A DNA stretch of 64,000 bases. Source: Cymodocea nodosa (lineage: Eukaryota > Streptophyta > Magnoliopsida > Alismatales > Cymodoceaceae). Each line of letters opens with the position of its first letter. The first letter of the stretch is position 1. The stretch is taken from the NCBI GenBank assembly GCA_036874045.1, contig CM072340.1, forward strand, positions 9,935,001-9,999,000, written 5' to 3'. The notes under the pieces were generated by a model. The model was given only the letters and a program-made list of their open reading frames with translations. It did no database searches and was not told where the DNA came from. The translations under genes and the position numbers were made by a program. This document shows positions 4,851 through 64,000 of the stretch, piece by piece.

Positions 4851-4869
4851 GTATATTTTTTTAAATCAG

Positions 4870-9998: not shown

Positions 9999-10014
9999 TC
10001 GAAAAGGGGGAGAT
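9999..10014 (+). other. SIRE-1 polypurine tract
   Basis: GAAAAGGGGGAGAT lies directly before the 3' LTR, the expected plus-strand priming site. A near copy (aaaaagggggagaaat) lies about 310 bases upstream, near 9696-9711. Confidence 0.85.
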
Positions 10015-35188: not shown

Positions 35189-35200
35189 CTTCCCCCATAC
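35189..35200 (-). other. G5 polypurine tract next to the 3' LTR
   Basis: The minus strand reads aagtatgggggaag directly before TGTTTAGAA. A second tract of the same design (ggtatggggggaggt) is at about 36491-36505, both preceded by gcaaaat. Confidence 0.8.
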
Positions 35201-39345: not shown

Positions 39346-39525
39346 TTAATGAATTTTATAAGTAATTTTGCATGATATTATCTATCTATGATGGATAAAT
39401 GATATTAATTATGGGAAATATAAGTCTTGAAATATAGTGCAATATAGAAATTTAATTAACAAGTGCATCCCCCATTGGATATAATTTTACATAGAACTCA
39501 TTGATTTTATTTTAAATGTCTTATG
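39346..39525. other. Unassigned sequence between G5 and G1
   Basis: AT-rich, with a lone tgcatcccccattgg tract near 39472 that could be a reversed polypurine tract. Nothing else recognised. Confidence 0.3.
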
Positions 39526-40921: not shown

Positions 40922-40927
40922 ACTGTT

Positions 40928-40945
40928 GCCAGGGATTGGCAATTT
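40928..40945 (+). other. Asp-tRNA primer binding site of G1
   Basis: TGGCACTGTTGCCAGGGA matches the Athila/Tat-type site TGGCGCCGTTGCCGGGGA at 15 of 18 positions. Confidence 0.85.
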
Positions 40946-41039
40946 GGCTTAGTTTATTTTTACCATATTTGAAGTTCTTAGTTGGTTGTTTGATAAATTT
41001 TCATAAACATATCTTTCTTGTGCTTAGTTGTGAATTTTA

Positions 41040-41254
41040 TTGCTTCAATTTCTTGCAAGTATGTCAAATTTTCATCATGATGATCCTTTTAAGTTTATAA
41101 ATAATTTTTTATCTGAAAGTGTTTGTTCTTATTACCATGTAAAAGGTCATGATGAAAGCATATGTACTAGCAAGTTATTTAATATAAAAATTCAACTAGT
41201 AGAAGAAACAACTCATGTTAGTGATGAATGTAATGCTTTTATGTATTATTAAAT
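41040..41254 (+). mobile_element. gag: G1 nucleocapsid-like fragment
   Basis: This short frame starts 95 bases after the primer site. It has a knuckle-like CSYYHVKGHDESIC aligned with CEFCNLEGHDISDC of G2 (49370). It continues in sense after the inserted LTR at about 43365. Confidence 0.6.
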
Positions 41255-43360: not shown

Positions 43361-43364
43361 TAAA

Positions 43365-44520
43365 ATGCACAAATTGATACTTTACAATGAATATGATGTC
43401 TTGCATGATGCTAGTGAATTTTCTTATGATTTTGATATGCATAAATCTCAGATTGATGATAGAAATGATGTTCTTGATTGGTATCAAGTTAGTAGTAGTT
43501 CTATAGAAGAGTCCATGAGGAATATAGAGAGAACCATAGAGTTAGGAGATAGCTATTATGTTGCCACTAAGCTCCTACAACAAAAAGAAGATGTAATCGT
43601 CATAGATGACGAAGAAGACTCTAATGTAGATGAAAACATGAATTTAATCTTAAGATCTGGAAAAACCATAGAAAGAAACATATTAGAACATGAAAGTGAA
43701 GAAAAACAAAGTGAAGAAAATGTAGATGAAAAGGAAGAAAATATTTTGACAAGTGAAGAACATAAAGATGTAGTACTAGAACATGAAGGAGTTGAACTTG
43801 AAAAATGTCTAATGGATGAAACTAATGAAGAATTAATTGAAGAAAAGCTTGTTATAGACTTAAAAAAGGATAAAAAGAAAGAAGAAACATCTGAAAATAT
43901 GAACAACAATCCACCATTTCCTAGTCGACTTGACAACAACAAAGAAAATGAAGAAAATGAAGCTATAAGAACCATATTTGAGAAAATCAATGTTAATATA
44001 CCTATGTTAGAATTAATTAGAAAAATTCCAGCATATGGGAGGGTGCTTAAAAACCTTTGTACCAAGCATAGGAAACCAAAAAAAAATTAAGTAAGCAAGT
44101 TTGTTTAACTGAGTTAAGTAGCTCAATGTTGCTTGATAGTTTAACTAAAAAATTCAATGATCCTGGTGTTCCTCTAATAACTTGCTTAATAGGGAATGTT
44201 TTAATTGAAAAGGTGTTATTAGACCTTGGTGCAGGAGTTAACATGATGCCTAAGCACTTATATGAACATTTGGGAATCACAGGAATTAAGAAAACTAGAA
44301 CACTAATTAAACTAATTGATAGATCATATAGGAGTCCCATGGGTATCGTAGAGGATGTCTTAATTAAAATTGAAGATTTTATATACCAGTCGACTTTATC
44401 ATTTTAGAAACCAATACATCAACTTGTGAACCAAATGAATTTACTTTGATCCTAGGGAGACCATTCTTAGCAACTATTAGTGCCCACATTAATTGCAAAA
44501 TGGTAAAATGTCAATCTCCT
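43365..44520 (+). mobile_element. pol: G1 gag C-terminal part and protease
   Basis: There is an acidic Glu/Lys-rich segment, the Athila hallmark NLILRSGKTIE (about 43643-43670), a hydrophobic FEKINVNIPMLELIRKIPAY segment, and the protease region LDLGAGVNMMPKHLYEHLG (about 44219-44277), where D-L-G-A stands for the usual D-S-G-A. Confidence 0.85.
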
Positions 44521-44779
44521 TTAACAATAAGGTGATATCATTGAACATTTTTAAAAGAGATAGGACTATAAACCATCAAGTAGATGACAATATTAGTGTA
44601 AGCATTTCTGAATTATTTGAAGAAACTGATGAAAATAGTAGTAATGAAGAAGAACATAGTGTTGAAATTTGCTTTATAGATGTTCAAGATAATCTAGAAC
44701 ACAAGGCACATTTACAAGAGAATAGTAGTGAGCATGAAATGAATAATGACTTGATTTCAGAAGCTAAGGAAAGGACTCA

Positions 44780-45570
44780 ATTAAAATCACTTCCACAAAA
44801 TTTGAAGTATGCATTTATAGATAAGCAAAATGAATATCCTGTCATAATTGGAGCCAACTTAACTCGAAGCCTAGAAGAAAAATTAATGAAATTATTAAGT
44901 AAACACAAAGGAGCTCTTGGTTGGCAATTGAGTGATATTATAGGAGTTAGTCCCACTATAGTTGAACATAGAATTATCCTAGAAGATGAGAACTATGCCT
45001 TTAGAGAACCTCAACGTAGATTGAATCCCCAAATGAGTGAGGTGGTAAAGAAGGAGATAGTTAAATGGCTTGACAATGGCATTATATACCTTATTAGTGA
45101 TAGTAGGTGGGTAAGCCCTGTGCATGTAGTACCTAAGAAATCGGGCTTTATAGTAGTTGAAAATCAAGATCATGAGTTAGTGCCTACTAGAATAAAAACC
45201 AGTTGGAGGGTATGTATTGATTATCATAAATTGAATTTAGCAACTCGTAAAGATCATTTCCCATTACCATTTGTTGATCAAATGCTAGAAAGGTTAGCTG
45301 GACATGAATTTTATTGTTTTCTTGATGGATACTTTGGGTACAACTAAATACCCATAATCTCTGAGGATCAAGAAAAGACTACTTTCACTTGTCCAAGCGG
45401 AACCTATGCTTTTAGGTGTATGCCTTTCGGTTTATGTAATGCTCCTACAACATTTCAAAGATGTATGGCAAGAATTTTTTATGATATGAATGAAAATTTT
45501 TTAGAAATTTCATGGATGACTTTTCTGTCTTTGGCAAAAATTTTGATAGTTGTTTACATCATTTAGATAT
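44780..45570 (+). mobile_element. pol: G1 reverse transcriptase part
   Basis: The sequence has SPVHVVPKKSG, WRVCIDYHKLNLATRKDHFP, MPFGLCNAPTTFQRCM and MDDFSVFG, the RT motifs of Athila-like Gypsy, in order. Confidence 0.9.
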
Positions 45571-45599
45571 GGTTTTGCAAAGATGTGTTGAAAAGAACT

Positions 45600-46330
45600 T
45601 TATTTTAAATTGGGAAAAGTGCCATTTCATGGTGAATGAAGGCATAGTTCTTGGGCATGTAATATCTAATAGAGGGATTGAGGTGGATAAGGCAAAAATT
45701 GACGCTATATCTCATTTGCAGCCACCTAAATCTGTTAAGGAGGTTAGAAGCTATTTAGGACATGCTGGTTTTTATCGAAGATTTATTCATGATTTTAGCA
45801 AGATAGCAAGACCTATAACTAATTTACTTGCAAAATATTCTGAGTTTATTTTTGATGAACATTGTCTTGCTGCTTTTAATCAACTTAAGCATGCATTAAT
45901 ATCTCCTCCTATAATCAATGCCCCAATATGGGATTATCCTTTTGAAATTATGTGTGATGCCTCCAATTATGCAGTAGGTGTAGTACTTGGGCAAATAATT
46001 GATAAGAAACATCATGTCATATGCTATGCTAGTAAAACTTTGAATGAAGCTCAAGTAAATTATACTACCATAGAAAAATAATTTCTTGCTATTGTTTTTG
46101 CTCTAGATAAATTTAGACCATATTTAGTTTGTAATCAAGTTATTGTGCATACTGATCATGCAGCCATTAAACATTTGATGAGTAAAAAAGATGCAAAACC
46201 AAGATTAATTCGATGGGTTTTATTGTTGCAAGAATTTAACATAGAGATTAAAGATAAGGTTGGAAAAGAAAATTTAGTTGCTGATCACCTCTCTAGATTA
46301 GAAAATATTCCAACATGCAATAATGTGATT
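45600..46330 (+). mobile_element. pol: G1 RT end and RNase H
   Basis: The thumb region VRSYLGHAGFYRRFIHDFSK is followed by [48 protein letters not shown] and [14 protein letters not shown], the Gypsy RNase H motifs. Confidence 0.9.
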
Positions 46331-46379
46331 AATGAAAAGTTTCCTGATGAGAGTTTATTTCTAATTGGTAAGTTACCTT

Positions 46380-47172
46380 GGTTTGCAGACATTGCTAACT
46401 ATCTTGCTACAAGGTTAATACCAACTGATTTATCTAAACTAGATAGGAAAAGATTGAGGTACATGACTAAACATTATGTTTGGATAGAGCCTTATTTGTA
46501 TAGGATGAGTTCTAATCAAATTTTAAGAAGATGTCTTCCTGAAGATGAAATTGCTAATGTCTTAAATTTTTGTCATAATCATGCTTGTGGAAGTCATCTT
46601 AGCCATAGAAAAACTTCTTTGAAAATTCTTGAATGTGGATTTTATTGGCCTTCTCTAATTAAGGACTCTAAAGATCATTATAGACATTGTGATAGATGCC
46701 AAAGAATGGGAAAAATTTCCAAACGAAATATGATGCCTTTGAATCCTATCATTGAAGTTGAAATTTTTGATGTTTGGAACATTGATTTCATGGGACCATT
46801 TCCCACTTCTTTTGGTTATTCTTATATTTTGTTGGCTATTGATTATGTTTCTAAATGGATTGAAGCTATCCCAACTAAGAAAAATGATGCTAAAGTTGTT
46901 GATTTTCTTAGATCTAACATTTTTGCTAGATTTGGTATTCCAAGAGCTATAATTAGTGATAATGGACCTCACTTTTGTAATTGAGTATTTCAATTGGCCT
47001 TGAGGAAGTATGGGGTTACTCACAAGTTAGTAACACCATATCATCCTCAAACAAGTGGGCAAGTTGAGGTATCCAATAGACAAATCAAGCAAATGCTCGA
47101 AAAAGTAATCAAACCAAGTAAGAAGGATTGGGTAGAAAAGCTTAATGATGCACTTTGGGGTTATAGGACAGT
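46380..47172 (+). mobile_element. pol: G1 integrase part
   Basis: The H2C2 zinc domain is [14 protein letters not shown]...CDRCQRMG (about 46570-46715). The catalytic core shows [11 protein letters not shown] (about 46785) and ISDNGPHFC (about 46953). It is then interrupted by G2 in the region corresponding to WAYRTAYKT of G2. The pentamer acagt (47168-47172) is the candidate target duplication of G2. Confidence 0.9.
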
Positions 47173-49218
47173 TGTTTAGAATGAAAAAGTGCATAATATT
47201 AATGGTTAAATGATGGTTAATTGCATAATATTTAGCTTATCATATGAGAATTAAGCCATTATGTTATAATTGCACTGTTATATGCTTTAATAAAAGAATC
47301 TACATAATTTCAAGGAATTAATGTTAATTTAGTACATTTCTAAACTATCGGTAAATTGCAGGCTGTGAAATTCTTTAGTATCTAAATTTTCTGTTATTTT
47401 GTAGAGTTATGTTTAATGTACTAGATAGTTATGTTTTAAAGAATATTTTATTATTTCCTAAAGTACACGTGTTGAAACCATAATGCATGGCTTATGTGGA
47501 TTTTTGGTAAGTTATCTATTAACTATCCGAAATGCATCTAGGCATCGAATAGTTAGGTTCGTAAGTGTCTGAAATATTTGAACTTGTTAAGTTAGAATTA
47601 TGCACGTGTTGAATTTAAATGCTTTAGTATATCATGTGAGATGTACATGTTTAACTTGTTAAGTTAGCATAACTGTACGCATTGAGTTACATGAATACAC
47701 ACTAAGGTAACGCGTTATGTTAGCAGCTTATTTCTTTATTGCACGTGTTTTATAGTTAAATCAACGAAGTAAGTCTGTTGAGTTATCTGTAACTCCACAG
47801 ATTATTTAATTTCTAATATGCCACTATAGCGGTTATAGAAACAAGACATTCGAAGGAAAACCACGATTGCACGTATCATGCAAGAATTCACTCATGGAAG
47901 GGAGAAGAAATCACCATCGTTGATCTAAATGAAGGAAATCCAACCGATCATCTAAGTAGAAGGAGTTACTACTGAAGAAATATAAAAGAAGTGGAGAAAA
48001 AATGAAGAAGGTGTGGTTTGAGGTGTGTGGCAGCGTGTGTAAAGGCGGAGGACTGCACTAACTATAGGCAATGTCGAAAGTTCACTGAATCATCCACACC
48101 AACACCAACATCACCAACATTACCATAATCACCAATCATCGGAGGTCTATGAGGATACTTTCCTGATGTTGGGTCGATTTCGAGCCAAACACAATACTTG
48201 ACAACCACTATGAGGAGTGATTGCATCGCAGGAAGGGAAGCCATTTTCACCAAGCAGCAACTCATATCTTAGGAGATCGCAAAACTTCTAGCCTTGGTTT
48301 CGGGTTGATGCCAGTATGCTGAAGAGGAAATCATCTTGCAATTCTGGACTTGCGATTCTATAGGGAGAGGAGGCAGAATTGTAAGTGATTAAGTTTTAAA
48401 TGGTGTAATCGCATAGCATGTAGTGATGGAAGTATTTATTATCGATAGAGATTTTTACATTTCACCTTTCGCCCATTTTCATGAACATCTCAAAACAAAA
48501 ATACCAAAAACAACAACTTATCTATGTTTATATTTAGTATTTAAGTGTTGTATTGTTTGTTTTGTATCGTGATTAAAGTTATCATTGTTAGTATTGTGAA
48601 TGTTTTATGTTTGTTTGATTCAGAAAATAGAAAATAGTATTATAGTTTACTAAAATCGATTTGTTCCAAATACTTAAAGATTTTAATGGTTACTGTTTGA
48701 AATATTTGAATGTTAGTGTTGCTTAATGATAAATCTAATATTCACTAGCAATAAAGAGCTTAATTGATGTTATTTACAATCTATGGAACCGCCCAATGGT
48801 TGGCCAAATTCTTTTGTAAATAGTAGTATTAAACTGGAAAGATAGGCTTGTGGAGTTAACTTAAGTCCATGAGATTAGTCCGTTGTGTTAACTGTAACTC
48901 AATAGAGTGATGACTGAACACATTAAGTATAATATAAAAAATGGAATAGTACATAATTCTTACTCAATTCTCTATGGGATCGACCTGTACTTGCACACAA
49001 ATACAATATACACTGTGCACTTGTAGTTAAAATACAAATTGGAATTAATGTCTAATTTGTGTGAAAGGTTGTTTGTTTACTTCTAAATAGAAATTATTGA
49101 TATAAGCATAAAGACAAATTAACCAAGTTAAAAACAGAAGTTAACAAATACAAGTTATTTGGTGTTATTGTTTGGGAACCAATACAAGTTCTCTAGTGCT
49201 ACCTAAAGCAACCGAACA
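47173..49218 (+). repeat. 5' LTR of G2
   Basis: TGTTTAGAATG start and ...CGAACA end, nine bases before the primer site. It holds dyads of the TTCGGATAGTTA and CGTTAAGTTA types (47480-47800), a TATA box (47981-47988) and the gatcgacctgtacttgcac box (48979-48997). Other copies are 33797-35188 (reverse), 456-548 with 11628-13125 (reverse) and 25950-26362. Confidence 0.88.
47981..47988 (+). promoter_or_regulatory. TATA box of the G2 LTR (TATAAAAG)
   Basis: Conserved with the G5 LTR (34368-34375, reverse). Confidence 0.6.
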
Positions 49219-49226
49219 AGTTTTTC

Positions 49227-49244
49227 TAGCACCATTGCTGGGGA
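49227..49244 (+). other. Asp-tRNA primer binding site of G2
   Basis: TAGCACCATTGCTGGGGA matches the Athila/Tat site TGGCGCCGTTGCCGGGGA at 14 of 18 positions. The differences are transitions. Confidence 0.8.
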
Positions 49245-49314
49245 ATTGAGAAGCTAAGCAACTATAAATGCTGTTTTGTTTCAATAGCAAGAGTGTTGTG
49301 TATTTTCTTCTATA

Positions 49315-50200
49315 ATGGAGAATATGGCATATGCTTATACTCAAAGATTTTTGAAACCTGTAGTTAGCATATGTGAATTCTGTAATTTGGAAGGTCACGA
49401 CATTTCTGATTGTTTGAAACTAAAACAATTGCAAATGGTTAGATCACATGAACAACAAATGAATTATCTTCACTATAATAGATCTGAGTATGAGAATCCT
49501 ATGGTTTACCCAACTAATGGTCAGCTTAGAATGTGTAACATGTTGAGAGACAAGGAAGTTTGGGATAGGTATGACAGACTGGAGCGTAGCATAGAGCAAA
49601 ACATGGACAAACTGGAACAATTTATGTGTCAGCAACAAGAAGTATAAGGAAGAAGATTCAAAACCTAAAATTGATATCATTTACGAAACTGAAAAAACCT
49701 AGTGAAAATTGATCAAAAATTGAATGCAATGAGATTAGATGATCTAGAAAGAAAACTAAAAGCATTGGACGAATATACAATGAAATTACAAGTTATGCAA
49801 CAAGACAACACAAATGAAAATTATAATGTTATAGATTTGCATAATTTGCAAGACATACAAACAAAAGAAAATACCAATGTAAGAGAATTTAAAGAGTGCA
49901 ATTGAAGACTAAAAATAGTTGAAGATCATAATTACAAAAATGATATACAAGAACATCAAGAAAGTAACGAAAATCTAGAAGATGTATGTATAACATTAAG
50001 ATCTGGAACTAATATACCATCAATAATTCAAAACGAAAATAATATGAAGGTGGATAAGAACAAAAACCAAAATGATAATGAAAGTGTAATATCTGAAAAT
50101 ATAGAAATCAATGAAGAAAAATCTGAATCTACAAATGAGACTAAAATGATCAAACAAATCAAATGAAAGAAAAAGAATCTTTTAAATCATAATTATTAGC
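49315..50200 (+). mobile_element. gag: G2 nucleocapsid-like and gag C-terminal part
   Basis: The frame opens 70 bases after the primer site with MENMAYAYTQRFLKP and a CX2CX4HX4C knuckle CEFCNLEGHDISDC (about 49375-49416). It is followed by a coiled-coil-like stretch (DRLERSIEQNMDKLEQFM; LDDLERKLKAL) and ITLRSGT (about 49993). No capsid domain precedes the knuckle. Confidence 0.8.
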
Positions 50201-50219
50201 ACCCTATCCTGAAAGATTA

Positions 50220-50990
50220 CAACAAACATTTCTTGAAAAATAAGAAAAAATTAGAGAAATTTTTGAAAAAGTACAAGTTAACATTCCTTTGTTAGATTTA
50301 TTGTAGAAAATGCCACCTTGTGCTAAATTTCTTAAGGATTGGTGTACTAAGAAAAGAGAGCGAAAAGTTTTAAGGAAAGTCTTTTTAGCTGAACAAAGTA
50401 ATTCCCTATTTTTGCCACAAATTTCTAAAGAGTTATCTGATCCTGGAATCCCTGTTATATCATGCACCATAGGAAATACCATTCTAGAAAGAACCTTAAT
50501 AGACTTAGGTGTAGGTATAAATGTTATGCCAAGTGATATATTTGCATCCTTAGGATTAGAAGGCTTAATCCCTACTAGGACTGTTATTCAATTAGCTAAT
50601 AGAAGTATAAGATACCCTAAAGGAAAAATAGAGGATGTCTTAATTAAAATCAAAAACTTCATATATCCTATTGATATTGTAATTTTGGATTCCCAACAAA
50701 TTAAGCATAAAAATAGTGATACATCTTTAATTTTGGGAAGACCATTTTTAGCAACATCAGGGGCTGTTATTAATTGTAAAACTGAAGTAATGAAGTTAGT
50801 ATATGGTAATGAGAATACTCAACTAAATATTTTCAAACCAGAAAAGTTTGAGTTAGAAATGTCCTTACATACCATAGATTTTTTAGAGGATGAAGGAGAT
50901 ATGCTAGATGATGTGATTCAAGAAGAGTTAAATAGGCAACTCAATTCTGAAACTTTAAAGGAAAGTGAAAGCATAAATATAGGAGATTAA
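50220..50990 (+). mobile_element. pol: G2 protease part
   Basis: The KDWCTKKRERKV basic stretch is followed by VISCTIGNTILERTLIDLGV, NVMPSDIFASLG and LILGRPFLATSGA, the retropepsin fold of Athila-like elements (D-L-G at the active site). Confidence 0.85.
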
Positions 50991-51099
50991 GAAAAAAATA
51001 ATTTAGAAAATGATGATGTTCAATTAGGAGCTCTAGCTTCTGATAGGCAGCAATTAGAATTAAAACCTATATATTTTTGGAAGAAAAACAAACATGTCT

Positions 51100-51830
51100 A
51101 GTCATTATTGCTTTAGATTTAAAAGAGGATCAAATTACTAAATTAAAAGATGTAGTCAAAACTTATAAAGAAGCAATAGGATAGACTATGACTGATATAA
51201 AAGGGTTAAGTGCAACTTTATGTTGTCACCACATATATTTAGAAGAGAATGTTAAACCTGTTAGAATTCTTGAGAGGAGATTAAATCTAAATCTTAAAAA
51301 AGTAGTTAGGAAGGAAATAGTTAAATGATTAGATAATGACATAATTTATCTGATTTTTGATAGCTCATGGGTTAGTCCAATCCATGTAGTTCCCAAGAAA
51401 TCAGGATTAACAGTTATTAGGAATGAAAGTTAAGACTTGATACCTGCTAGAATTTAATCAGGCTGGAGAGTGTGTATAGATTATAGAAAGCTGAATGCAG
51501 TGACTAGGAAAGATCATTTTCCCTTACCTTTCATAGATCAAATACTAGAAAAATTAGTAGGGCAAGAATATTTTTGTTTCCTAGACAGGTATTCAGGATA
51601 TAACCTAGTCCTAGTAGCATTAGAGGATTAAGAGAAAATAACTTTCACTTGTCCTAATGGAACTTATGCTTTTAAGAGAATGCCATTCGGATTATGTAAT
51701 GCACCAGCCACCTTTCAAAGGTGTATGCAAGGCATATTCACTAGAATGACTAAAGATTTTTTAGAAATATTTATGAATGATTTTACTGTTTATGGAACTT
51801 CAAAGGTGTATGCAAGGCATATGAAGTGTA
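51100..51830 (+). mobile_element. pol: G2 reverse transcriptase part
   Basis: The sequence has SWVSPIHVVPKKSGL, WRVCIDYRKLNAVTRKDHFP, MPFGLCNAPATFQRCM and the MNDF form of the catalytic box. It is followed almost at once by integrase sequence. Confidence 0.85.
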
Positions 51831-51839
51831 ATACAATTT

Positions 51840-52610
51840 ATAAGAACAAATATAATTGCTAGATTTGGGATACCTAAAGCTATTATCAGTGATAGAGGAA
51901 CTCATTTCTGTAATAGAAGTTTTGAAGCCTTAATGAAGAAATATGGAGTAAACCACAAAATTGCAACATCATATCATCCGCAAACTAGTGGACAAGTAGA
52001 AAGTGCAAACAAACAAATTAAGTTAATCTTAGAAAAAGTAGTAAATCCTACTAGAACAGATTGGGCTAATAGATTGATAGATGCACTTTGGGCTTATAGA
52101 ACTGCTTATAAGACAAGCTTAGGTATGTCACCCTTTAGGCTAGTATATGGAAAAAGTTGTCATTTACCAGTTGAAATTGAACATAAAGCTTATTTGGCAT
52201 TAAAAACTCTGAACACTAATTTAAATCAAGCTGCTGAAAATTGGAAAATACAATTGATTGAATTAGAAGAATTTAGGAGTGAACCTTATTCAAAAACTGT
52301 TAGAGAAAAAGAGAAAATGAAGTTCTGGCATGATAGGAAATTTATTCTAAAAACCTTTGAAATAGGACAAGAAGTATATCTTTACATGACTAGACTCCAT
52401 AACCATCCAGGAAAATTAAGATCTAGATGGGTAGGACCTTACATAGTTTGAAATATTTATCCCTATGGAGTGATTGAAATTGAAAATCCTAAGAATCAGA
52501 ATATATTTAATGTAAATGGACAAAGACTTAGGCCTATTTTGAAAATACCAAAAAGTTCCTTTGGAATTATAGAAGAAGTAAGAGTAGAGGATTACTCGAG
52601 CTTCACTTAG
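51840..52610 (+). mobile_element. pol: G2 integrase C-terminal half
   Basis: The sequence has [58 protein letters not shown] and the Athila signature [14 protein letters not shown], then the GPYIV-type end with NVNGQRLRP. Confidence 0.9.
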
Positions 52611-53270
52611 TAAGAAATTTTCTGAGTATAAAAAAAAAAAAGTAAAAAAAAGCCCTTATTTAAAATATAATCACAATTAAATTGAAAGGAATTATCAATT
52701 TTATCGAAATATATTTTAAAAAGAAAAAAATTGTTGCGGTTTAACCGATAGGATCCATCAGTCTAACCGAAACACAAAAATATAAAATAAAAATATATAT
52801 AAATATATGTAATTTAGGTTCAACTGAGGAATATAATGGTTTGACTGAAAAATTTTAAAGTGTTGAAAAAGTAAGATCGGTTAGATTGGAAATTCTTTGG
52901 TCTTGACCGAAGTAAAAATTATTATTATATGCATTTTTATTAGATATAACTTTATAAGAAGTCCGTTGAATCACATGTAACTCAATGAACTTACTCCATT
53001 GAGTCTAGGATAAGTTAACAAATTTACCCCGTTAAGTTAACTCTAACTTAACGGAGTACTGTAGTTAAGTCCATGGACTAAGTCTGTGGTGTTAACCGTA
53101 ATTCCGCGGATGAGAGAGTGAGAGTTTTGCATAGGAAGTGACCCGATTACCTGCCTAAACTTAAGGTTTATTTATACTAAACTTAGGGTTTGAGGGCATT
53201 ATCCACAGAATCATTTAGAACTTAGAATAGTAGAGATCAGAGTGATTCTGTTCCGTTGTGTAACTCCACG
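52611..53270 (+). mobile_element. G2 spacer between pol and envelope-like ORF
   Basis: Non-coding: an A-rich tract (52629-52655), then imperfect copies of CGGTTTAACCGA-type dyads (52735-52920), then GTTGAGTTA/TAACTTAACGG dyads (52960-53105). Confidence 0.65.
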
Positions 53271-53271
53271 A

Positions 53272-55484
53272 TGAGGAAGATGGCACCTGAGTTCTAGGAA
53301 AATGCAATTGACACGTCAAAAATTCTTAAAGATTCAAAGGAATGGCACACGAGGCAGAAAATCAGGAATACGACGAGGGAAAAAGAGCTACAAAAGGTAG
53401 AATCTGACCTTTTCTATTGGAGGAAAGTGTTAGTAGATTTGGGTATACAAATACCTCAAATAATGGAAACTAGAATCAAAGTTGCTTCGGAAGTTGCTGT
53501 AAGTAGAGAGAGAAGAATTAGGCCAAATAATGAAGTTGCCCTAGAACTAATCCAACGTAAGTCCCAACTCTAGTTCAAAACGTGCATAGGTAGACGGGCT
53601 CAGTGGGTAATCTAAGAGCAACAAAGAAAAGAAAATGAAGAATAAGAGGAATCGATTGCTGAAAGACCTATTTTTGAGGAATAGTAGCCAGAACCTTTAG
53701 TTCTACACCAAGGCTATTGGAACAAGCAGCAATTTTGGAGCCTTCTACTAAGGAAGAAAGAAGAGAATTTCAAGAACTGGTTCAAATAGGAAAAGACCAA
53801 GGAGAACTAAAAGAATTGGCAGTAGCTATAGTACATCTAGTGTTTGATGCACGGTACAAAAAGAGGGATGCAGAAAAGTTGAAAGCCTAATATAAAATCA
53901 AAGTGGAACAACATCAAGAAGCTACTACCAGACCTACTGCAAAAGGAGATGAAGTTGGTCTTTCAAGACTAGTAATTATGGAAAGAGTTAAATAGGAAGA
54001 GCTAGTACCTATGGCTCAAAGGCCTGTAGAGCCCATTTTTGTAGATTTAATCTTAGAAGAAAAAGAAGAAGACCAGGCACAATTAATTAGAAGAAGGAAA
54101 GGAAAAGAGATAGTGTCTGAATATCAAGAGGAGATTAAATCTGAAATACCAAGATCAGTAGGGCCTATAGAGCCGATTTTTGTAAACCTGCTATTCAATT
54201 CTGAAGAGGAGCAGGAGCAACAACAGTAAGAGCAAAGAGAAGAAGAAAAATAGGTTGAAACTAGTCTACAGCCTATACAAGAAGAAGAAATAGAAATTAG
54301 GGCAGAAGCTGATTTGCCCGTAGCTTCATCCCAATCTACCACAGAATCAGAAAGAACAGTGACATTGTAGATTGGTAGTCAGGAGGAAGAAGAAAAGGAA
54401 GAAAATGAACAAGAAGTTGAACAATTACATATGAAAAGAGATGACTCAATAGATTCCACTGAAGAGCAAAGAACTCTTCAGCAAATTTTGGACGGTATTG
54501 AAGATAGAGTGGAAAGTTCTACCAGCTCACCACCATAGACAAAAGCAAAAGCAAAAATACAAGAATTTGTGGAGCATTTTTAGTTAGTTCAAGTTCAGCA
54601 TATGGAAGAAGAAGTTCAAGAACAAACCCCTCTAGAGCAACAAATTCACATTCCTGACCCGATTGAAACAACAATTATAAATGAAGTATACTTTTGGAGT
54701 CAGAAAGCTTATAATAAATACCAAGAGATAAGGGATTGTGATATCATTTACAGTAGACTAGTAAATTGGGACGGAATGCAAGAAATCAAAGATTTAGTTG
54801 AGTTCCAAGGTCTATTGCAGTTTATTTCTCAACAAAGAGGGCATGTAGTATATGAAAATCTAGTACCCTACTTTTATGCAAACTTAAGAGAAGGAGGAGG
54901 ATTAATTTCCAACATGGAGGAAGCTGATGTACAGATAACACAGCATTTTAGGATTGAAGAATGAAGGACTAGAAATTCTAGAAAGCACAACTACAGTCGA
55001 GTGGATAGAACAGACCATAAAGGATCGTTTAGCTATCAATCCTTGTGTGCCATTATTAAATAAACTAAAGCAATTAAATGGTAAAGCACACATGATAGCT
55101 AACATTTTGATTAAGAATGTTTACCAACGACAAGGCCATGATATAGAATTGAGTCAGTTTGTCAAATGGGCCACATATGCAATTGTAAATAGAATTCAGA
55201 TAAATTGGTTTGTAGTTTTTATCTCCAAGTTGAGAATAGTGAAGAAGAAATTATTTTATGGAGATCTGATTCCACTACTGATGGTGGACTGTATCGATTT
55301 CACTAAATGGGCATCCAAAAGGATAAGATCTAGAACCATTTCAGTAAAAGAGTACAGAAATTATGCGGCTGCAAAGATTGCTGAACCTTTTGGAGGAGTT
55401 ACAGGAGCTGTAGAAAGGATTAACCAATTAGAAGAAGTAGAAAGACTCTAGAAGGAAGTAGATGAAGTTAGAAGAAAGGATTAA
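53272..55484 (+). mobile_element. G2 envelope-like 3' ORF region
   Basis: A long Glu/Gln-rich acidic N-terminal part (53272-54680) leads to a folded domain (54690-55430). This has YNKYQEIRDCDIIYSRLVNW, KDLVEFQGLLQFISQQ, GHDIELSQFVKWATYAIVNR, INWFVVFISKLR and KKLFYGDLIPLLMVDCIDF, with a coiled-coil-like tail (GAVERINQLEEVERL). It is the same family as G3 (27488-28246) and related to the SIRE 3' ORF domain. No signal peptide or membrane helix was evident. Broken; several breaks. Confidence 0.8.
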
Positions 55485-56471
55485 ATTGTATTGTTCATCT
55501 ACTTGTATATATTTGTATGAAAAATATCTAATTGATGTAATGTAATGTTATTCATATAAATCAATGCATGTTTTTCAGATGTTTTTGTATTAGTATTGGA
55601 GAATGATGTAATGGTTGAATTATCTTGAATATTATATAATTGTTTGAACAAGATGCAAGACTGTTTAAAAGATATATACAAATTTGCTAAATGACAAGAT
55701 TAAATGCAAAATAACCGATTAATGTTGAAAATATCTACAAGCTGCAGAGTAAAATATAAATTTTGCATAATATGAAATGAACTATAAGTTAAATATTTAT
55801 ATAATGTTCAGATTCAAATGAGTTTAATTAGAACACTTCATTCATGACATGTATTTAACTTTATTTAAGTTAACAGAATGCAGGAGAGAAAAAAAAAAAT
55901 ATATATAAGTTAATACGATGAGTAAGCTTAGAAGTTGCTAAGTGTTAATTCAACGAAGTAAGTTTGTTGAGTTAACCTTAACTCCACGAGGTCAATAATA
56001 TAATATAAGGTCACTCCGTTGAGTTATCTATAACTCAATGAAGTTAGTTTGTTGAGTTAGCAATAGTAACTGAAGCTTGTCCGTTGAGTTAACTATAACT
56101 CATCGAGGTTAGTTCGTGGATTAAGCTAAACGATTATTCTTTTAGCCACGAACGAAACTTCATAGATCTAGTGGTTATTAAAATTTGAAATTAGAAGCGA
56201 CACACGTACCCATAAAAATAGGAACTGCACTACACGTTACAAAATACGTTCTTGCAACGAGATTCATTTGCTTTATGGACGTGCATTATAAATATAGAAC
56301 AGAATGTTATTTACGAGTTACCAGCACTTTTGAAAGAAAAGGAACTTCGTTAGGGAACTGGAAAGAGAAGCAGCTGATTCAACTTCATCCGTCAACAACT
56401 ATTTACTAAGTATAAAGCTTCAGATTGGTATGTAATTAATCTTTTATTATTTTACTTTATGTTAAGAGTTT
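55485..56471 (+). promoter_or_regulatory. G2 spacer before capsid gag, with dyad cluster and TATA box
   Basis: 55485-55900 is AT-rich. 55930-56140 has about five dyads of the GTTGAGTTA...TAACTCA type. TATAAATA lies at 56287-56294, about 180 bases before the capsid ATG (56472). The first 650 bases are shared with G3 (26848-27487). A separate promoter for the downstream gene is inferred. No primer site was seen. Confidence 0.4.
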
Positions 56472-56629
56472 ATGAGCACATGGATTCGTTCTCCTAGCAC
56501 TAAAAGATTAGTTAGAACACCTACACAAGATTCTTCAACATAGAGACATATTGAAGTATTTTCTGAATTAGACTTTAACGAAATCCTTAGGAGTGTAGCT
56601 GACCTTTCTTTAAAAGAGAACGAAGATAT
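56472..56629 (+). mobile_element. gag: G2 capsid gag, first part
   Basis: The frame from ATG 56472 reads MSTWIRSPSTKRLVRTPTQD and SELDFNEILRSVADLSLKEN before the SIRE-NA insertion. It continues at 63622. Confidence 0.75.
56625..56629. repeat. Target-site duplication GATAT of SIRE-NA (left; right copy 63617-63621)
   Basis: Perfect 5-bp repeats. On both sides the flanking sequence is G2 capsid gag in the same direction. Confidence 0.93.
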
Positions 56630-56909
56630 TGTTAGGAACGAATGGCTTCACTAGAGGGGGGGTGAATGGAGAACAGTGTGAATTTAAGCCTATTTTTCAC
56701 TTTACTAACTAATTTGATTAATCAGTTTGCACAAGTAATAATTAGATAAAAATATCATGCACAACGGAAATAAAGGTAAGAAACACAAGAGAATTTTAGG
56801 TGGTTCACCAACTTGGCTAGTCCACCCCCAAGGGTCACTTGGACTTCCCTAAGTATCTTAACACTTACACACTTGCTTTCAGGTCGAAGCAAGAACCAAC
56901 CACACAGAA

Positions 56910-57060
56910 GTTTTCAGGTATAAACTCCAGAAAACCAACACTTAGAAGTTTTTAGGTATAAACTCCAAAAATCAACACTTAGAAGTTTTCAGGTATAAAC
57001 TCCAGAAAACCAACACTCAGAAGTTTTCAGGTATAAACTCCAGAAAACCAACTTCTTGAG
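56910..57060. repeat. Tandem repeat, about 38-bp unit, four copies
   Basis: The unit begins aacactcagaagttttcagg and continues tataaactccagaaaacc. The other LTR has about three to four units at 61970-62080. Confidence 0.85.
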
Positions 57061-57449
57061 TTTTCAGGTTGAAACTCAAACCAACAACTGAATGAAGCTT
57101 TAAGGTTGAAGCCACGAACCAAATGATCCTTCTTGGATCAAACTTTCAACACATGGAGAGCTTTAAGAATCTTCTTGTAAATCTAGCTTTCAATTGATTA
57201 TTTGTTGAACTGAATTTGAGCTTTCTTCTATATCAATAATTGATCTGCAATGTATATTGTATCTCTGTATGTAATTGTATCTGTAATCTCACTTGTAAGC
57301 TCTACTGAATATTGAAAGATCTGTCTGTATTTATGCTAGAATATCCAACGATCATATTTTCTCCTCAATGGATGTATTCTGTTGTACTTGATTTGACTTC
57401 AGTCCCAAATATGGTAAGTTACCGTTCTATCTGATGTTCAGTAAGTAAC

Positions 57450-58440
57450 CTTCCGATAATCTGACTTTCGAATGGTTATATAAATAACTTGTCGAAATGC
57501 ATCCATAACTTACCGATTCTTTACTCATATCCTGTTATCTGCGTCACATGAGGATTTTAAGTTGCTCACATGAAATGTCAAGTGTTCGGAGACTTGTATA
57601 TTAACTCACCGAAAAGAGCTCCTGACTTTCAGATAGTTAACTACTGTAACTCTCCGACATTTCTTTTAATTCTCCGACAGCTGTCTCTTCAATTCTGCAC
57701 GTGCATAAAAGAATAACTTAAGTTTCGGATAGTTAAGAATGTAACTCACCAAAAATTTCCCATTGTTCGGATAGTTATCTTTCTAACTCTCTAAAAACCC
57801 ATTTGAGCATTTGTCTGGAATTCTACACGTGGGAAATTCAATGACTTAAGTTTCGAATAGTTAAACTGTAACTCATCGAAACTCTCTTGAAATTTCGGAT
57901 AGTTATCTTTCTAACTCTCCAAAAACTTATATGAGCTTTTGTTTGAAATTTTGCATGTGGGAAATTCAATGACTTAAGTTTCGGATAGTTAAAATGTAAC
58001 TCACCGAAACTCTCTTGAAATTTCGGATAGTTATCTAACTATCCGATTTTTCCTTTTAAGCTTTTAACTGGCATCTTCTCCATTCTGCACGTGCGTAATA
58101 GGATAACTTAAGTTCCGAAAAGTTATACCTGTAACTCACCGAAAAAGTCAGATAGTTATCTTCCTAACTCTCCGAAAAATCCTTTAAGCTTCTATTCTGA
58201 ATTTCTACATGTGGTTAATTGAATGACTTAAGTTTCGGATAGTTAGCCTTTCTAACTTTTCGATTTTCCTTTTGCTTTTGGATAGTTAACTCCTTAACTC
58301 TCTGATCATTCAACCAACTACCTTTCATAACTCTCCGAAGGCTTTATAATTTCGGATAGTTATTCTTCTAACTGTCCGATAGTATTACTATTGCTTTAAA
58401 CTTGCTCTTCGGATACTTAAACCTGCAACTGTCCGATTTT
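57450..58440. repeat. Hairpin array of TTCGGATAGTTA...TAACTNTCCGAA in SIRE-NA LTR
   Basis: There are more than ten dyads, most with 10-12 bp arms and 2-10 base loops, for example TTCGGATAGTTA-tc-TAACTATCCGA (58022-58046). They recur in units of about 110-120 bases together with CACGTG and aattcaatgacttaag. The array is repeated at 62490-63440. Confidence 0.85.
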
Positions 58441-58585
58441 CCTATAGCTCTATAATAGTATCTTCTAGAACTTTCTCCATCTATTCGTCTACTTTCTGAT
58501 CTTTTGTTGAGCTATCATATCTGTGAAATACAATTTGATTTCCTCACATAGGTTTTTGCATTATCAAAATACTAGGGTCCTAACA

Positions 58586-60113
58586 ATCTCCCCCTTTTTG
58601 ATAATGAGAAAATCCTTTACATTAAATTACATGTATTTCACTCCCTAGATTGTTGCTATACATTCAATCACACAGAAACTAAGTAAAGCAAAGATTTACA
58701 ATGAATATAATACAATGAAGTTAAATTCTTGCCTTGTTTGTGTGTTGGGAATGCTCCCCCTACCTTCTATGTAATTTTCTATATTCTTCTCCCCCTTTTT
58801 GTCATTAGATAAAAGGAGTTCCACAATTTTTTTTTGCTGAATTTTCTTCTCCCCTTTTTGTCATTAAATTTGTATTTGATGATATACCAATTTTCTGATC
58901 TCTATAATCCTGTTAGATATCAAGTTGTGGAAAGAATCAAATGCATCAATATCTTCAAATACCAATTTTTGATTTTCCATCAAATGTAGACTGTTGATGT
59001 GTAAATCTCAATTGTTGAGATATTTTCATCATTGCAGTCTATTTTCTTCTTTTCCTTTGATGTTGTGCTGCTTTTCTTCTTTCTTATTTGAGCATAGTAT
59101 CAATTGAAGTGTTAATTTCCTTAATCCTTGTCTGATGCCAATTATTGACATTCTATCATCTGAGAAGTCAGTAATTGCTCTCCTGATTTGTGATATTTCT
59201 TCCTTTGTTTTCGTGTAATTACTACATCATTTGTAAAAATTGAAAATAGTGAAATGCCAATAGTTAATGTAGCAATTTATAAATATGTAGTTAATAGTAA
59301 TTTCTGCCACATGCTCTCCCCCTATCTGTATGGAGGTTCTCTGATTTATAATAGCAAGCTATAGGCTCTCCCCCTATATGCATGCCCTCTTTATACACTT
59401 TTATTTTGTACTGAAGTAACATTCTGAATTATCTTCATATAGTAGGTTCTCCCCCTACTTATATGTTTTTCCTTGCAGACAAATTTGTTGCACCTATTCT
59501 GCAAAATGAATGTCATATATGATACCAATTGAACTAAATACCAATTGTTAATCAAAAATATCATAAAAGATTTTCAATCAATTTGCTTCTGACTCCAATT
59601 CGTTTATCTTCTCTTGGATCTTTATTTCAAGTGGTTCTTCTATTTGTAGAAGATAATTTGAAGACTGTAATCTATCTACTACAGATTTTGGTTGTCCTTT
59701 GATGAATCTGATTTCCTTGCGTTTGTAGTCATTCAACTTGGCTCGTGCAAGCCTTGTTTCCTTTAAAGAACATGATTCAATCATTGATGCTACTTTTGAT
59801 GCCAATTGTTAATTTCAGAATATCATAACTGATTCTTAACTGATTGCCTTCTGATTAGCAACTGTTTAGCTTCTTAAACTCTCTCTTCAATAGATTCCTT
59901 CAAAACATATGTAGAGAGCAATTTGTGATTGTAGTCTGGTTGCTGCAGATTTTGCCCTCCTTGAGCATTAAGATTTTAGGCACAATTTCCACTCAGTCTA
60001 AGTGAGCACTTTCTACCAATTTATGGTGCCTCTTGTAATACCAAATTTTTACTGTCATAACTGGTTTGGAGCTATAGATCAACTACTCCCCCTAAACCAT
60101 ATAATCCTGTAAT
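58586..60113 (-). mobile_element. SIRE-NA internal non-coding region with repeated polypurine tracts
   Basis: The polypurine tract next to the LTR is at 58586-58602 (minus: caaaaagggggagat). Similar tracts, seen as CTCCCCCT or TCTCCCC on the plus strand, occur near 58755, 58790, 58850, 59325, 59370, 59450 and 60086. A 75-codon minus frame (59578-59805, with LQIEEPLEIKIQEKINELE) has a decayed relative next to it at 59830-59960. I do not recognise it. Confidence 0.65.
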
Positions 60114-61644
60114 TCAAACAGAAATAGATTTTGGTACCCATACTTTCTTGGGTCCATAAGTGTTAGTCCTGACAATATTTAGTTTACTGCCTTTTGGTAG
60201 CCACATTGAACCAAATCTTCTTTTCATGGCAAACACTATTGTACCATCTCTATAAGATCGGATAACACCATCACAGTAGAGTATTTTCTGTAGAGTAGCA
60301 TACCCTAGGCCAAATCTATTTGAGCCATGTCTCTGTGAACCAATGATTTGATCTAATCTTTTTTGTCCATTGGTAAATTTATGCACAGAATTTTTCAGAT
60401 CAGTGATTTCTGATTTCAAATTTTCATTTTCATTTATCAATTTATCATTATTGCATTTTGTATCTTCAGCATGCAAATTTTCAAGTTTATTATGTGCTTC
60501 TTCTAAGCATGCAGTTAAATGCTTAATTTCCTTTCTATACTTTTTGCATTTAACATATAAGCTGTCAACAGTAGACAAAGGAATATTTACATCTAGATTA
60601 TCATTGTCTACATCAGAATCACTTTGAGATGAAGTGGAACATACCTCTTGTGCTGTATAGCACACGTTTACTGGTACCTCTTCATCTGAACTAGATGAGC
60701 TACTAGAAGAACTACTATCATCCCAAGTAGCCTTCAATGCCATTTTCTTTTTGTAGCTCCTCTTCTTCTTCTTCATTTCTTTTTCTTCTTCTTGTTGCAA
60801 AGGACAATCAGGTTATATATGTCCCTGCTTCTTGCATTTAAAGCATATTGGTGCATTGCTTTTTGATGTGCTGGCATGATTCTTTTTCTTCATCCATTTT
60901 CTGAATTTTCTAGCGAGTAGCACAACTTCATCATCATCCAAGCTTTGAAGTTCCTGTATTGATGGAAAGGCTAGTTCTTTCTTTGTTTCAGTTTTCTTTT
61001 TACCACTACCTTCCTCAACTTTCCATTCCTTCATTTGAACTTCATGGGCCAGTAGGTTGCCCATTAGATCTTCTACTGAGTATTTGTTGAAGTCTTTGGA
61101 ATCTTATATCGATGTGGACTTTTGCTTCCATTCCACAGTTAAGCTTCTGAGGATTTTCTATACCTATTCATGGACAAAAAATTCCTTTCCCAAACCTCTT
61201 AAGCCATTAATAATCTTAGTGAATCTTGAAAACATATCAGTGATAGTTTCATCATCAAGCATTTTAAATAATTCAAGCTTTCTAAGTAAAATGCTTATTT
61301 TAGTGTCTTTCACTTGGCTGGTTCCTTCAAAGGTTAATTGAATAGTGTTCCAAGCCTCGTGAGCAGATTTACAAACTAAAACTTTATTATATTGTTCAGT
61401 AGATATGGCACAGTAAATAATATTCAGCCCTCGAGCATCCATTTGAATGATTCTCTCATCCTCCTCAGTCTAGTCATCCTCATGACTAGGTGGAATAGGT
61501 GTTCCTAGAACAACCATTTTCCATAAACTCACATCTGAGCTTTTAAGGAAACATTCCATCTTGTTTTTCCAATAATTATAATTAATACCATCAAACAAGG
61601 GAGGGACGATGGATGTTCTGACCCTCTCTGTGAAAAGATTCCAT
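60114..61644 (-). mobile_element. gag: SIRE-NA gag region
   Basis: From the ATG at 61644: PPLFDGINYNYWKNKMECFL, ARGLNIIYCAIS, LTFEGTSQVKDTKISIL and LQSLDDDEVVLLARKFRKWM. A knuckle start CFKCKKQGHI (about 60815-60845) follows, then a Lys-rich and Ser-rich stretch, a coiled-coil-like extension and the end GPKKVWVPKS. The same gag type as SIRE-1, with SIRE-1's C-terminal extension. Broken; several breaks. Confidence 0.88.
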
Positions 61645-61682
61645 GATCTCAAATGGTTAAATCTATAAAAAGAGATCAACCT

Positions 61683-61694
61683 GCTCTGATACCA
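61683..61694 (-). other. Primer binding site of SIRE-NA (iMet tRNA)
   Basis: The minus strand reads exactly TGGTATCAGAGC, two bases inside the 5' LTR. Confidence 0.95.
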
Positions 61695-61696
61695 AT

Positions 61697-63616
61697 TGTT
61701 AGGAACGAATGGCTTCACTAGAGGGGGGGTGAATGGAGAACAGTGTGAATTTAAGCCTATTTTTCACTTTACTAACTAATTTGATTAATCAGTTTGCACA
61801 AGTAATAATCAGATAAAAATATCATGCACAACGGAAATAAAGGTAAGAAACACAAGAGAATTTTAGGTGGTTCACCAACTCGGCTAGTCCACCCTCAAGG
61901 GTCACTTGGGCTTCACTAAGTGTCTCAACACTTACACACTTGCTTTTAGGTCGAAGAAAGAACCAACCACACAGAAGTTTTCACGTATAAACTCTAGAAA
62001 ACCAACACTTAGAAGTTTTCAGGTATAAACTCCAGAAACCAACACTCAAAAGTTTTCAGGTATAAACTCCAGAAAACCAACCTCTTGAGTTTTCAGGTCG
62101 AAACTCAAACCAACAATTGAATGAAGCTTTAAGGTTGAAGCCACGAACCAAATGATCCTTCTTGGATCAGACTTTTAGCACATGGAGAGCTTTAAGAATC
62201 TTCTTGTAAATCTAGCTTTCAATCGATTCTTTGTTGAACTGAATTTGAGCTTTCTTCTATATCAGTAATTGATCTGCAATATATACTGTATCTCTGTATG
62301 TAATTATATCTGTAATCTCACTTGTAAGCTCTACTGAATATTGAAAGATCTATCTGTATTTATGCTTGAATATCCAACGATCATATTTTCTCCTTAACGA
62401 ATGTATTCTACTGTACTTGATTTGACTTCAGTCCCAAATATGGTAAGTTACCATTTTGTCTGATGTTCAGTAAGTAACCTTCCTACAATCTTTGACTTTC
62501 GGATGGTTATATAAATAACTTGTTGAAATGCATCCATAACTTACCGATTCTTTACTCATATCCTGTTATCTATGTCACGTGAGGATTTTAAGTTGCTCAT
62601 GTGAAATGTCAAGTGTTCGAAGACTTGTATATTAACTCATCGAAAAAAGCTCCTGACTTTCGGATAGTTAACTACTGTAACTCTCCGATGTTTCTTTTAA
62701 TTTTCTAACAACTGTCTCTTCAATTCTGCTCATGCATAAAAGAATAACTTAAGTTTCGGATAGTTAAGAATGTAACTCACTGAAACTTTCCCATTGTTCG
62801 GATAGTTATCTTTCTAACTCTCCGAAAACCCATTTGAGCATCTGTCTGGAATTCTGCACGTGGGAAATTCAATGACTTTAGTTTCGGATAGTTAAATTAT
62901 AACTCACCGAAACTCTCTTGAAATTTTGAATAGTTATCTTTCTAACTCTCTGAAAACTTATATGAGCTTTTATTTGGAATTCTGCACGTGGGAAATTCAA
63001 TGACATAAGTTTCGGATAGTTAAACTGTAACTCACCGAAACTCTTTTGAAATTTTGGATAGTTATCTAACTCTCCGATTTTTCTTTTTATGCTTTTAACT
63101 ATCGTCTTCTCCATTCTACACGTGCATAATAGGATAACTTAAGTTCTGAAAAGTTATACCTGTAACTCACTGAAAAAGTCGGATAGTTATCTTCCTAACT
63201 CTCTGAAAAATCCTTTAAGCTTCTATTCTGAATTTCTACACGTGGTTAATTGAATGACTTAAGTTTCGGATAGTTAGCCTTTTTAACTTTTCGATTTTCC
63301 TTTTGCTTTCGGATAGTTAACTCCTTAACTCTTCGATCATTCAACCAACTACCTTTCATAACTCTCCAAAGGGTTTATAATTTCAGATAGTTATTCTTCT
63401 AATTGTTCGATAGTATTGCCGCTGCTTTAAACTTGCTCTTCAGATACATAGACCTGTAACTGTCTGATTTTCCTGTAGCTCTATAGTAGTATGTTCTAGA
63501 ACTTTCTCCATTTGTTTGTCTGCTTTCTGATCTTTTGCTGAGCTATCATATTTGTGAAATACAATTTGGTTTCCTCACATAGGTTTTTGCATTATCAAAA
63601 TACTAGGGTCCTAATA
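61697..63616 (-). repeat. 5' LTR of SIRE-NA
   Basis: Collinear with 56630-58585, including the 38-bp tandem repeat and the hairpin array. Confidence 0.93.
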
Positions 63617-63621
63617 GATAT

Positions 63622-64000
63622 GACTGCTCTAGTAGAGAAACCATTAGGGGAAATTCTGTATCCTGAATTAGTTGATGAACCTTCATGTATTCGATTGCCA
63701 AACTTTGAGGGAGACAGGTTTAAACTGAAATCTAATTATGTTAGTCAATTGCCACATTTTCATGGATTAGAAAGAGAGGATGCCTATTATTTCCTTAGAG
63801 AATTTAACAAAGTTTGTCAAATGATGAAAATATTGAACATGAGTATTGATGCTATTAAACTTAGATATATCCCTTTTGCTTTAAAAGACATAGCTAAGAG
63901 ATGGTTATATACTCTGTCGCCTGATTCAATTTTTGCATGGACTGAATTTTGCTCTGTTTTTCTAGAAAAATATTATCCAACACATCAAACGATTAAAAAG
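63622..64000 (+). mobile_element. gag: G2 capsid gag, second part (runs off the window)
   Basis: MTALVEKPLGEILYPELVDE leads to the capsid domain with KLKSNYVSQLPHFHGLERED, EFNKVCQMMKILNMSIDAIK, KDIAKRWLYTLSPDSIFAW and FLEKYYPTHQTIKK. This is about 90% alike to G5 at 39326-38990. The domain continues past the window. Confidence 0.88.

Follow-up and report, generated by a model that had tools for sequence, protein, structure and literature searches.

Capsid gene located behind pol in an Athila-like group of Ty3/gypsy retrotransposons from Cymodocea nodosa

The DNA studied here is a stretch of 64,000 nucleotides from Cymodocea nodosa (C12:9935001-9999000, below called the window), and the elements in question are the long terminal repeat (LTR) retrotransposons G1, G2 and G5 located in it. 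These elements and their copies elsewhere in the genome (374.6 Mb in 28 contigs were searched) form an Athila-like Ty3/gypsy group with a permuted gene order, in which pol comes first and the capsid (CA) gene last. We assign this reading a probability of about 0.9. A preliminary description of the window had joined G2 and G5 at the capsid into the order LTR, nucleocapsid (NC)-protease (PR)-reverse transcriptase (RT)-integrase (INT), envelope-like (env-like) gene, CA, F-box gene, LTR. The joined order has now been found in single copies, namely in G2 after extension of the contig and in two further copies, E1 and E4. The layout is also wider than supposed there, as it occurs in the G1 family and, with one copy each, in two further families.

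Domains were assigned by self-comparison, lists of reading frames and Pfam profiles with curated cut-offs. Zinc knuckles and LRSG motifs were recognised by eye and not from Pfam; the Pfam scan returned no zinc-knuckle match in the G1 and G2 frames of the window. G2 is a single element with LTRs at both ends and the structure LTR-PBS-NC-LRSG-PR-RT-INT-(env-like)-CA-Fbox-PPT-LTR, where PBS stands for the primer binding site and PPT for the polypurine tract (Table 1). Its capsid gene starts with an ATG exactly where the preliminary description had placed it, at 56472, and is interrupted by a minus-strand copia element with the 5-bp duplications GATAT, which that description did not mention. The Retrotrans_gag profile matches the part of the gene behind this insertion (63617-64000) with an E value of 6.7e-06, above the curated cut-off. 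The PR, RT and INT pieces of G2 match their Pfam families below the curated cut-offs, yet they align with G1, E1 and the copy E2. No Pfam match was obtained for the env-like region in the same scan; it is called env-like because its part at 54.6-55.4 kb shares 36-40% identity with a frame of this type in one of the window's copia elements, the Sirevirus at 549-11628. Across 54584-55448, this gene shows 31-40% identity to the Sirevirus env-like frames at 8511-9311 and 30620-31325, and by sequence likeness the Ty3/gypsy element G2 and the copia Sirevirus seem to share an env-like gene in the window.

Extension of the contig to the 3′ LTR of G2, where the preliminary description had proposed to look for the F-box gene, revealed the rest of the capsid gene, then the F-box gene (L009:2000-2758; L-numbers label fetched genomic stretches), the polypurine tract and the 3′ LTR. 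The latter consists of L009:3830-5098 and L010:7061-7839, the two parts being split by a Sirevirus, so named by eye from its copia genes and env-like frame. At its end, L010:7839, the integrase frame of G1 picks up again. The sequences flanking G2, ACAGT and ACAAC, are two transitions apart and represent an imperfect target duplication. The two LTRs differ at 95 of 1,253 and 48 of 777 aligned bases, and G2 is therefore an old insertion. It is also defective: about 1.3 kb with RNase H (RH) and the N-terminal part of the integrase are absent at 51802-51824 relative to E1, and the capsid frame carries an early stop. In G5, the capsid followed by an F-box gene (6.5e-10), a polypurine tract and an LTR of the G2 family was seen as described before.

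No credible capsid match was found at the front of the copies examined. A scan of the window for primer sites, tolerating up to 3 mismatches to the pattern, gave two matches, at 40918-40934 and 49227-49243, while 0.06 are expected by chance. These are the Asp-type primer sites reported earlier for G1 and G2, and the knuckle frames close behind them (41034 and 49288), followed by LRSG and protease, are likewise present. For G1 the reported order of knuckle and LRSG-protease holds, but a 2.16-kb insert between the two had escaped notice. This insert (41229-43387) separates the knuckle of G1 from its LRSG motif, and pieces of it are also found in L046. The earlier statement that no capsid lies between primer site and protease was borne out in G1 and G2 of the window: with two family capsids as queries, nothing better than E 0.87 was found in this interval in five of five G2-family copies, where it measures about 1.1 kb, and in the window's G1. 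Frames of canonical gag-protease proteins match this front, in the same five copies and G1, only through residues behind LRSG.

To a protein search with the G2-family capsid, in which 150 of 5,421 candidates were scored, at least 150 places in the genome responded, and all except the window's own are 88-94% identical. Thirty loci were fetched with 1.5-kb flanks. The env-like gene lies upstream of the capsid in 26 of them (exceptions are the window's own locus, L015, and L033, L035 and L039) and the F-box gene downstream in 28 (exceptions L027 and L043), whereas PR, RT or INT was found within 1.5 kb of the capsid in none of the 30. Four copies, E1 to E4, were examined in two separate stretches per copy, covering about 19 kb; E1 and L024 are one and the same copy. 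All four contain a primer site followed by NC, LRSG, PR, RT, RH, INT, env-like gene, CA and F-box gene. The primer site of E3 reads TGGCGCCATTGCCGGGGA, which presumably fits the 3′ end of tRNA-Asp; those of E1 and E2 were found by eye. The polypurine tract and 3′ LTR are visible in E1 and E4, the 3′ LTR is partial in E3, and a Sirevirus obstructs this end in E2. E4 is uninterrupted, with primer site, all domains, polypurine tract and both LTRs. The host element of E4, which lies reversed, continues behind it without loss of a residue (RNase H 154|155), and the flanks CATCG and CATAG form an imperfect duplication. Pieces of E2, E3 and E4 align colinearly with E1 at 77-88% identity (70% in one 353-bp piece). 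As the preliminary description stated for G2, no LTR or primer site was seen between the env-like gene and the capsid, either there or in E1-E4. The two observations it had named as speaking against its layout, a majority of members with the capsid ahead of the protease and an LTR or primer site before the capsid, were not made in the copies examined. E3 carries an in-frame duplication of the capsid gene's first part, inside a frame of 380 aa (L050:1309-1908).

Genome-wide pairing of capsid and integrase matches of the G2 family gave the same order. When the best 150 capsid matches were set against 150 integrase matches, the latter being the best of a very large family, nine same-strand pairs within 20 kb were obtained; the capsid is downstream in all nine and upstream in none. 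Five additional capsid matches, chosen by eye, were left out of this count. The distances are 1,776, 4,052, five at 4,131-4,187, 11,171 and 19,531 bp, of which 11,171 belongs to the window's own pair and is due to the copia insertion. The integrase and capsid of G2-type copies are about 4 kb apart, with the env-like gene in this interval.

In the G1 family CA-NC comes directly after the integrase, and a polypurine tract and the LTR come next. The G1 capsid is 47% identical to that of G2 and begins about 310 bp past the integrase frame. Pairing in this family used 70 of 150 capsid matches (81-100% identity; the remaining ones, at most 49%, belong to other families) and 112 of 131 integrase matches (75-100%; the remaining ones, at most 63%, likewise). 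A same-strand integrase lies within 15 kb of 54 of the 70 capsids. In 51 of these 54 pairs the capsid is 973-1175 bp behind the integrase match, in the others 2.5, 10.5 and 14.2 kb, and in none is it in front. Counted from the integrase, 52 of 112 matches have a listed capsid within 3 kb downstream and none has one within 8 kb upstream. Long frames persist: 13 of the 112 integrase matches fall in a stop-free frame of 1,489-1,491 aa and 11 of the 70 capsid matches in a 454-aa frame. The distance from the integrase end to the capsid is 310 bp in all six fetched loci, G1 included. In one copy, L061, the capsid stop and a polypurine tract are 1.6 kb apart, neither env-like gene nor F-box gene being matched in this interval, and a G1-type LTR begins next. 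At the front, the window's G1 and part of L054 were examined for this family. Four of the capsid matches of other families, compared with all integrase matches, yielded one pair (capsid 915 bp downstream) and three unpaired matches. L059 and L060 are one copy each of two more families, with the integrase followed by capsid frames of 469 and 482 aa that are 39-41% identical to the G1 capsid. Neither these nor the G1 family has an env-like frame between integrase and capsid.

The assignment to Ty3/gypsy (Metaviridae) follows from the order PR-RT-RH-INT, the LTRs and the imperfect target duplications given above. The elements appear Athila-like by primer-site type and gag motifs. G1, G2 and E3 have the primer site of tRNA-Asp type that follows the LTR by a few bases in the Athila lineage, and the order PR-RT-RH-INT together with an env-like frame is that of Athila4, Calypso and Diaspora. 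The motifs NPxWRNHPNFSW and LRSG, which we take to be Athila-type gag motifs, are common to these elements and their canonical homologues (by eye). The Athila arrangement with the capsid in front of the protease was found neither in the five G2-family copies nor in the window's G1. Diaspora and Calypso use a tRNA-Asp primer site, and Diaspora, of the Athila/Calypso lineage, encodes gag at the start of a single gag-pol frame 1,892 codons long (PMC1142308); here, the capsid is a separate frame behind the integrase, and the G2 family adds an F-box gene.

Thirty-one proteins of other plants are related to the G2-family capsid (25-51% identity). Eight long canonical homologues among them were examined (from Papaver, Orobanche, Cannabis, Prunus, Tasmannia, Artemisia and two unnamed sources); downstream of the capsid and in frame, seven of them carry an LRSG-type motif and six an LDLGAS-type protease motif (by eye). 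Ten further relatives are mostly shorter proteins. Canonical gags have a zinc knuckle between the capsid and NPxWRNHPNFSW, whereas the G2-family capsid is without one and the knuckle is in the front frame (by eye). In the capsid tree, the four permuted families form one group with support 92/94 (2 of 500 shuffles were as low), and the eight canonical gags fall outside it. A single origin of the permuted layout is therefore likely, as judged from the capsid sequences. We propose that a single event, for example template switching, copied or moved gag to its place behind pol, and that the front copy would then have lost its capsid while retaining the knuckle and LRSG.

The capsid belongs to the retroviral/Ty3 type, with Retrotrans_gag above the cut-off and capsids ranking first in the fold search. 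In the model, residues from about 90 to 265 form a helical core predicted with confidence, and its best Protein Data Bank matches by Foldseek are the capsids dArc1, PNMA2 and Arc (best E 0.0045); in a viral fold search, fungal metavirus ORF1 came first (E 1.8e-04). No relatives of the capsid were found in viral_contigs. The ratio of nonsynonymous to synonymous substitution rates (dN/dS) was determined from 28-30 copies per segment, in frame and in two shifted frames, the pairs being non-independent. It is 0.15 for CAmid (shifted frames 0.59 and 1.07), 0.33 for CAc (0.89 and 0.95) and 0.23 for CA2 (0.37 and 0.76), the last value being biased by the choice of loci. We take this purifying selection to mean that the capsid was used as a protein during the spread of the family. 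For the F-box gene the case is weaker, although it contains few stops, 0.58 per 100 codons compared with 8.7 and 11.6. Pfam places the F-box domain at the N-terminus, as in SCF-type F-box proteins; a single-sequence fold of the protein is uninformative, with a mean predicted local distance difference test score of 32. A search of 5.8 billion proteins gave no match to it at E<=0.001, in a database that says little about plant F-box genes.

In E4, pol, env-like gene, capsid and F-box gene are separate frames. The capsid frame differs from those of pol and the env-like gene and begins about 0.95 kb behind the env-like stop. Since the capsid is in a frame other than pol, an mRNA of its own is likely. 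The capsid ATG is conserved in 28 of 29 distinct G2-family copies, and the F-box ATG is preceded by a T-rich tract with AG in 22 of 23 (both counted by eye). We propose that the genomic RNA would be translated into NC-Pol and that the capsid protein would be made from a separate mRNA, either obtained from the LTR transcript by splicing or initiated within the element; particles would assemble from the capsid so supplied, and the Gag:Pol ratio would be set at the RNA level. A separate capsid mRNA is probable on sequence grounds and represents the simplest account; the Ty1/copia element EVADE of plants offers a precedent by analogy, with Gag produced in excess from its own spliced subgenomic mRNA, shGAG (PMC8892269). 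There, gag still precedes pol and the RNA alone differs, while here the gene itself lies behind pol. That splicing in particular makes the capsid mRNA has about an even chance; it is our first guess, and an internal promoter the second.

An internal promoter between the env-like gene (or the integrase) and the capsid, in place of splicing, which the preliminary description had suggested, is rather unlikely. The spacer of about 1 kb before the capsid of G2-type copies could accommodate it, but only about 310 bp are available in G1-type copies, and the T-rich tract with AG hints at splicing, at least for the F-box gene. Translation of the capsid from full-length RNA by reinitiation or internal ribosome entry is unlikely. 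The step from pol stop to capsid frame is short in the G1 family, about 310 bp, but simple reinitiation would hardly bridge the integrase-capsid interval of about 4 kb with its env-like gene in G2-type copies. It is more improbable still that the capsid behind pol, though real, serves as an accessory or interfering Gag while the particles use a canonical Gag in trans (partial autonomy). Although a canonical family may exist in the genome, the capsid is under purifying selection and long capsid frames occur in four families. It is, moreover, the stretch of highest identity between copies (95% against 82-92%, in copies picked by the capsid), and in the match lists no capsid precedes a same-strand integrase within 15-20 kb.

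The capsid of another, truncated element that landed between the env-like gene and the 3′ LTR of G2 would imitate the layout, and the region is indeed heavily nested, with copia and Sirevirus inserts within G2. Such a chimera is hardly credible: E1-E4, at other chromosomal places, share the junctions and E1 is colinear with the rest, the env-like gene is upstream at 26 of 30 capsid loci, and the spacing is near-constant in 51 of 54 pairs of a second family. A nesting artefact is rejected on the uninterrupted copy E4 and the G1-family spacing.

Several points weigh against the capsid-last order and its proposed expression. Canonical copies may have gone unseen, since only 150 of 5,421 capsid candidates were scored. 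In the G1 family, 60 of 112 integrase matches have no listed capsid within 3 kb downstream, and for 16 of 70 capsid matches no integrase is listed within 15 kb; possible reasons are deletions, nesting or candidates left unscored. Because CA2 similarity guided the choice of loci, CA2 and its high nucleotide identity are subject to bias. In the tree, 11 sequences of unknown layout and the canonical P0003 share an unresolved fork with the permuted group. The tail of the back capsid resembles canonical gag tails weakly in G1, and an LRSG remnant at the end of the back capsid is weakly supported. No Protein Data Bank match to the capsid model reached E <= 0.001 in Foldseek. The dN/dS of the F-box gene, 0.45, is hardly below that of one shifted-frame control (0.49; the other 0.69). 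The splice hint before the capsid is weak, and one subgroup is without 15 bases containing the AG.

The position of gag ahead of pol ranks among the most constant traits that LTR retroelements and retroviruses have. This order is tied to the supply of much Gag and little Pol through readthrough, frameshift or maturation. We lean slightly towards the wider view that this clade uncoupled its capsid from its polymerase, with a genomic RNA encoding NC-Pol only, a capsid placed last and separately expressed, and in one family an F-box protein possibly blunting silencing. If true, the gene order would be one undescribed for LTR elements, with Gag:Pol set on the RNA. A successful group of high copy number with the capsid last would show that gag-pol coupling is dispensable and offer a natural test of its purpose. 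Such families could be misread by annotation that requires the order GAG-PR-RT-RH-INT, or that treats an element as non-autonomous when it has no gag at the front.

In the literature searched, with supplementary files and most subscription journals outside the search, no LTR retrotransposon with gag behind pol was found to be reported, the only hit of one such search being about HIV, and the accessible part of a plant-wide survey (PMC6317226) contains no mention of such an order. Extra genes between pol and the 3′ LTR of plant elements are described as env-like, antisense TRP28 or transduced genes; these likewise lie before the 3′ LTR, and gag is not mentioned among them in the accessible text (PMC7264820, PMC11963269). 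As speculation, the F-box protein could target SCF ubiquitin ligases of the host, possibly to counter silencing. The polerovirus P0 is an F-box-like silencing suppressor (PMC6593998), and plant viruses have F-box-type proteins that are reported to be able to counteract ARGONAUTE1; the likeness, by domain type, is that of an F-box-type protein carried by a plant parasite.

Table 1. Coordinates of the features of G5, G1 and G2 (window positions unless a contig is named)
Feature	Position	Strand	Remarks
G5 3′ LTR	33797..35188	-	same family as G2 LTR; cut off at 33797
G5 polypurine tract	35189..35198	-	before G5 3′ LTR
G5 F-box gene	37237..38112	-	PF00646, 6.5e-10
G5 capsid gene	38329..39317	-	broken frames; Retrotrans_gag 4.3e-06, above curated cut-off
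G1 5′ LTR	39320..40911	+	ends by eye; inserted in G5 capsid
G1 primer site	40918..40934	+	
G1 zinc-knuckle frame	41034..41228	+	by eye
Insert in G1	41229..43387		92% to L012:4140-6289
G1 LRSG-PR-RT-RH-INT	43388..47172	+	integrase broken by G2, continued at C12:10015848
G1 capsid-NC gene	starts ~C12:10016645		
G2 5′ LTR	47173..49218	+	TGTTTAGAATG...CCGAACA; lies within G1 integrase; 5-base left flank ACAGT at 47168-47172
G2 primer site, tRNA-Asp type	49227..49243	+	2 mismatches to pattern
G2 zinc-knuckle (NC) frame	49288..49644	+	directly behind primer site; knuckle by eye; without capsid match
G2 LRSG linker	49906..50163	+	motif by eye
G2 protease	50307..50987	+	PF13650 E 0.0012, below curated cut-off; 48% to G1 PR
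G2 reverse transcriptase pieces	51185..51859	+	Pfam below cut-off; RNase H behind deleted relative to E1
G2 integrase, part	51825..52448	+	rve, just below cut-off
G2 envelope-like region	53298..55448	+	broken frames; without Pfam match
G2 capsid gene, first part	56472..56629	+	ATG at 56472; GATAT duplication at 56625-56629
Copia-type element nested in G2 capsid gene	56630..63616	-	LTRs ~56630-58583, 61695-63616; gag in 60117-61763
G2 capsid gene, second part	63617..64000	+	Retrotrans_gag; runs on past window end

Exchange of DNA between the two superfamilies is also suggested behind the F-box gene. The G2-family stretch at 35367-36284, between F-box gene and 3′ LTR, is 75-77% identical to a Sirevirus interval between pol and the env-like gene (5802-6728 and 33198-33797 of the window), and DNA seems to have passed between a gypsy and a copia element. 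At 12189-13131, in a minus-strand copy, the first part of a G2-type LTR is tandemly duplicated with 521-bp spacing. An Athila-like fragment without a 5′ LTR (L011:2298 to L012:541), containing NC with two knuckles, LRSG, PR, RT and INT, lies inside a Sirevirus gag; unlike an LTR-type insertion, it has a direct repeat of some 45 bp on its two sides.

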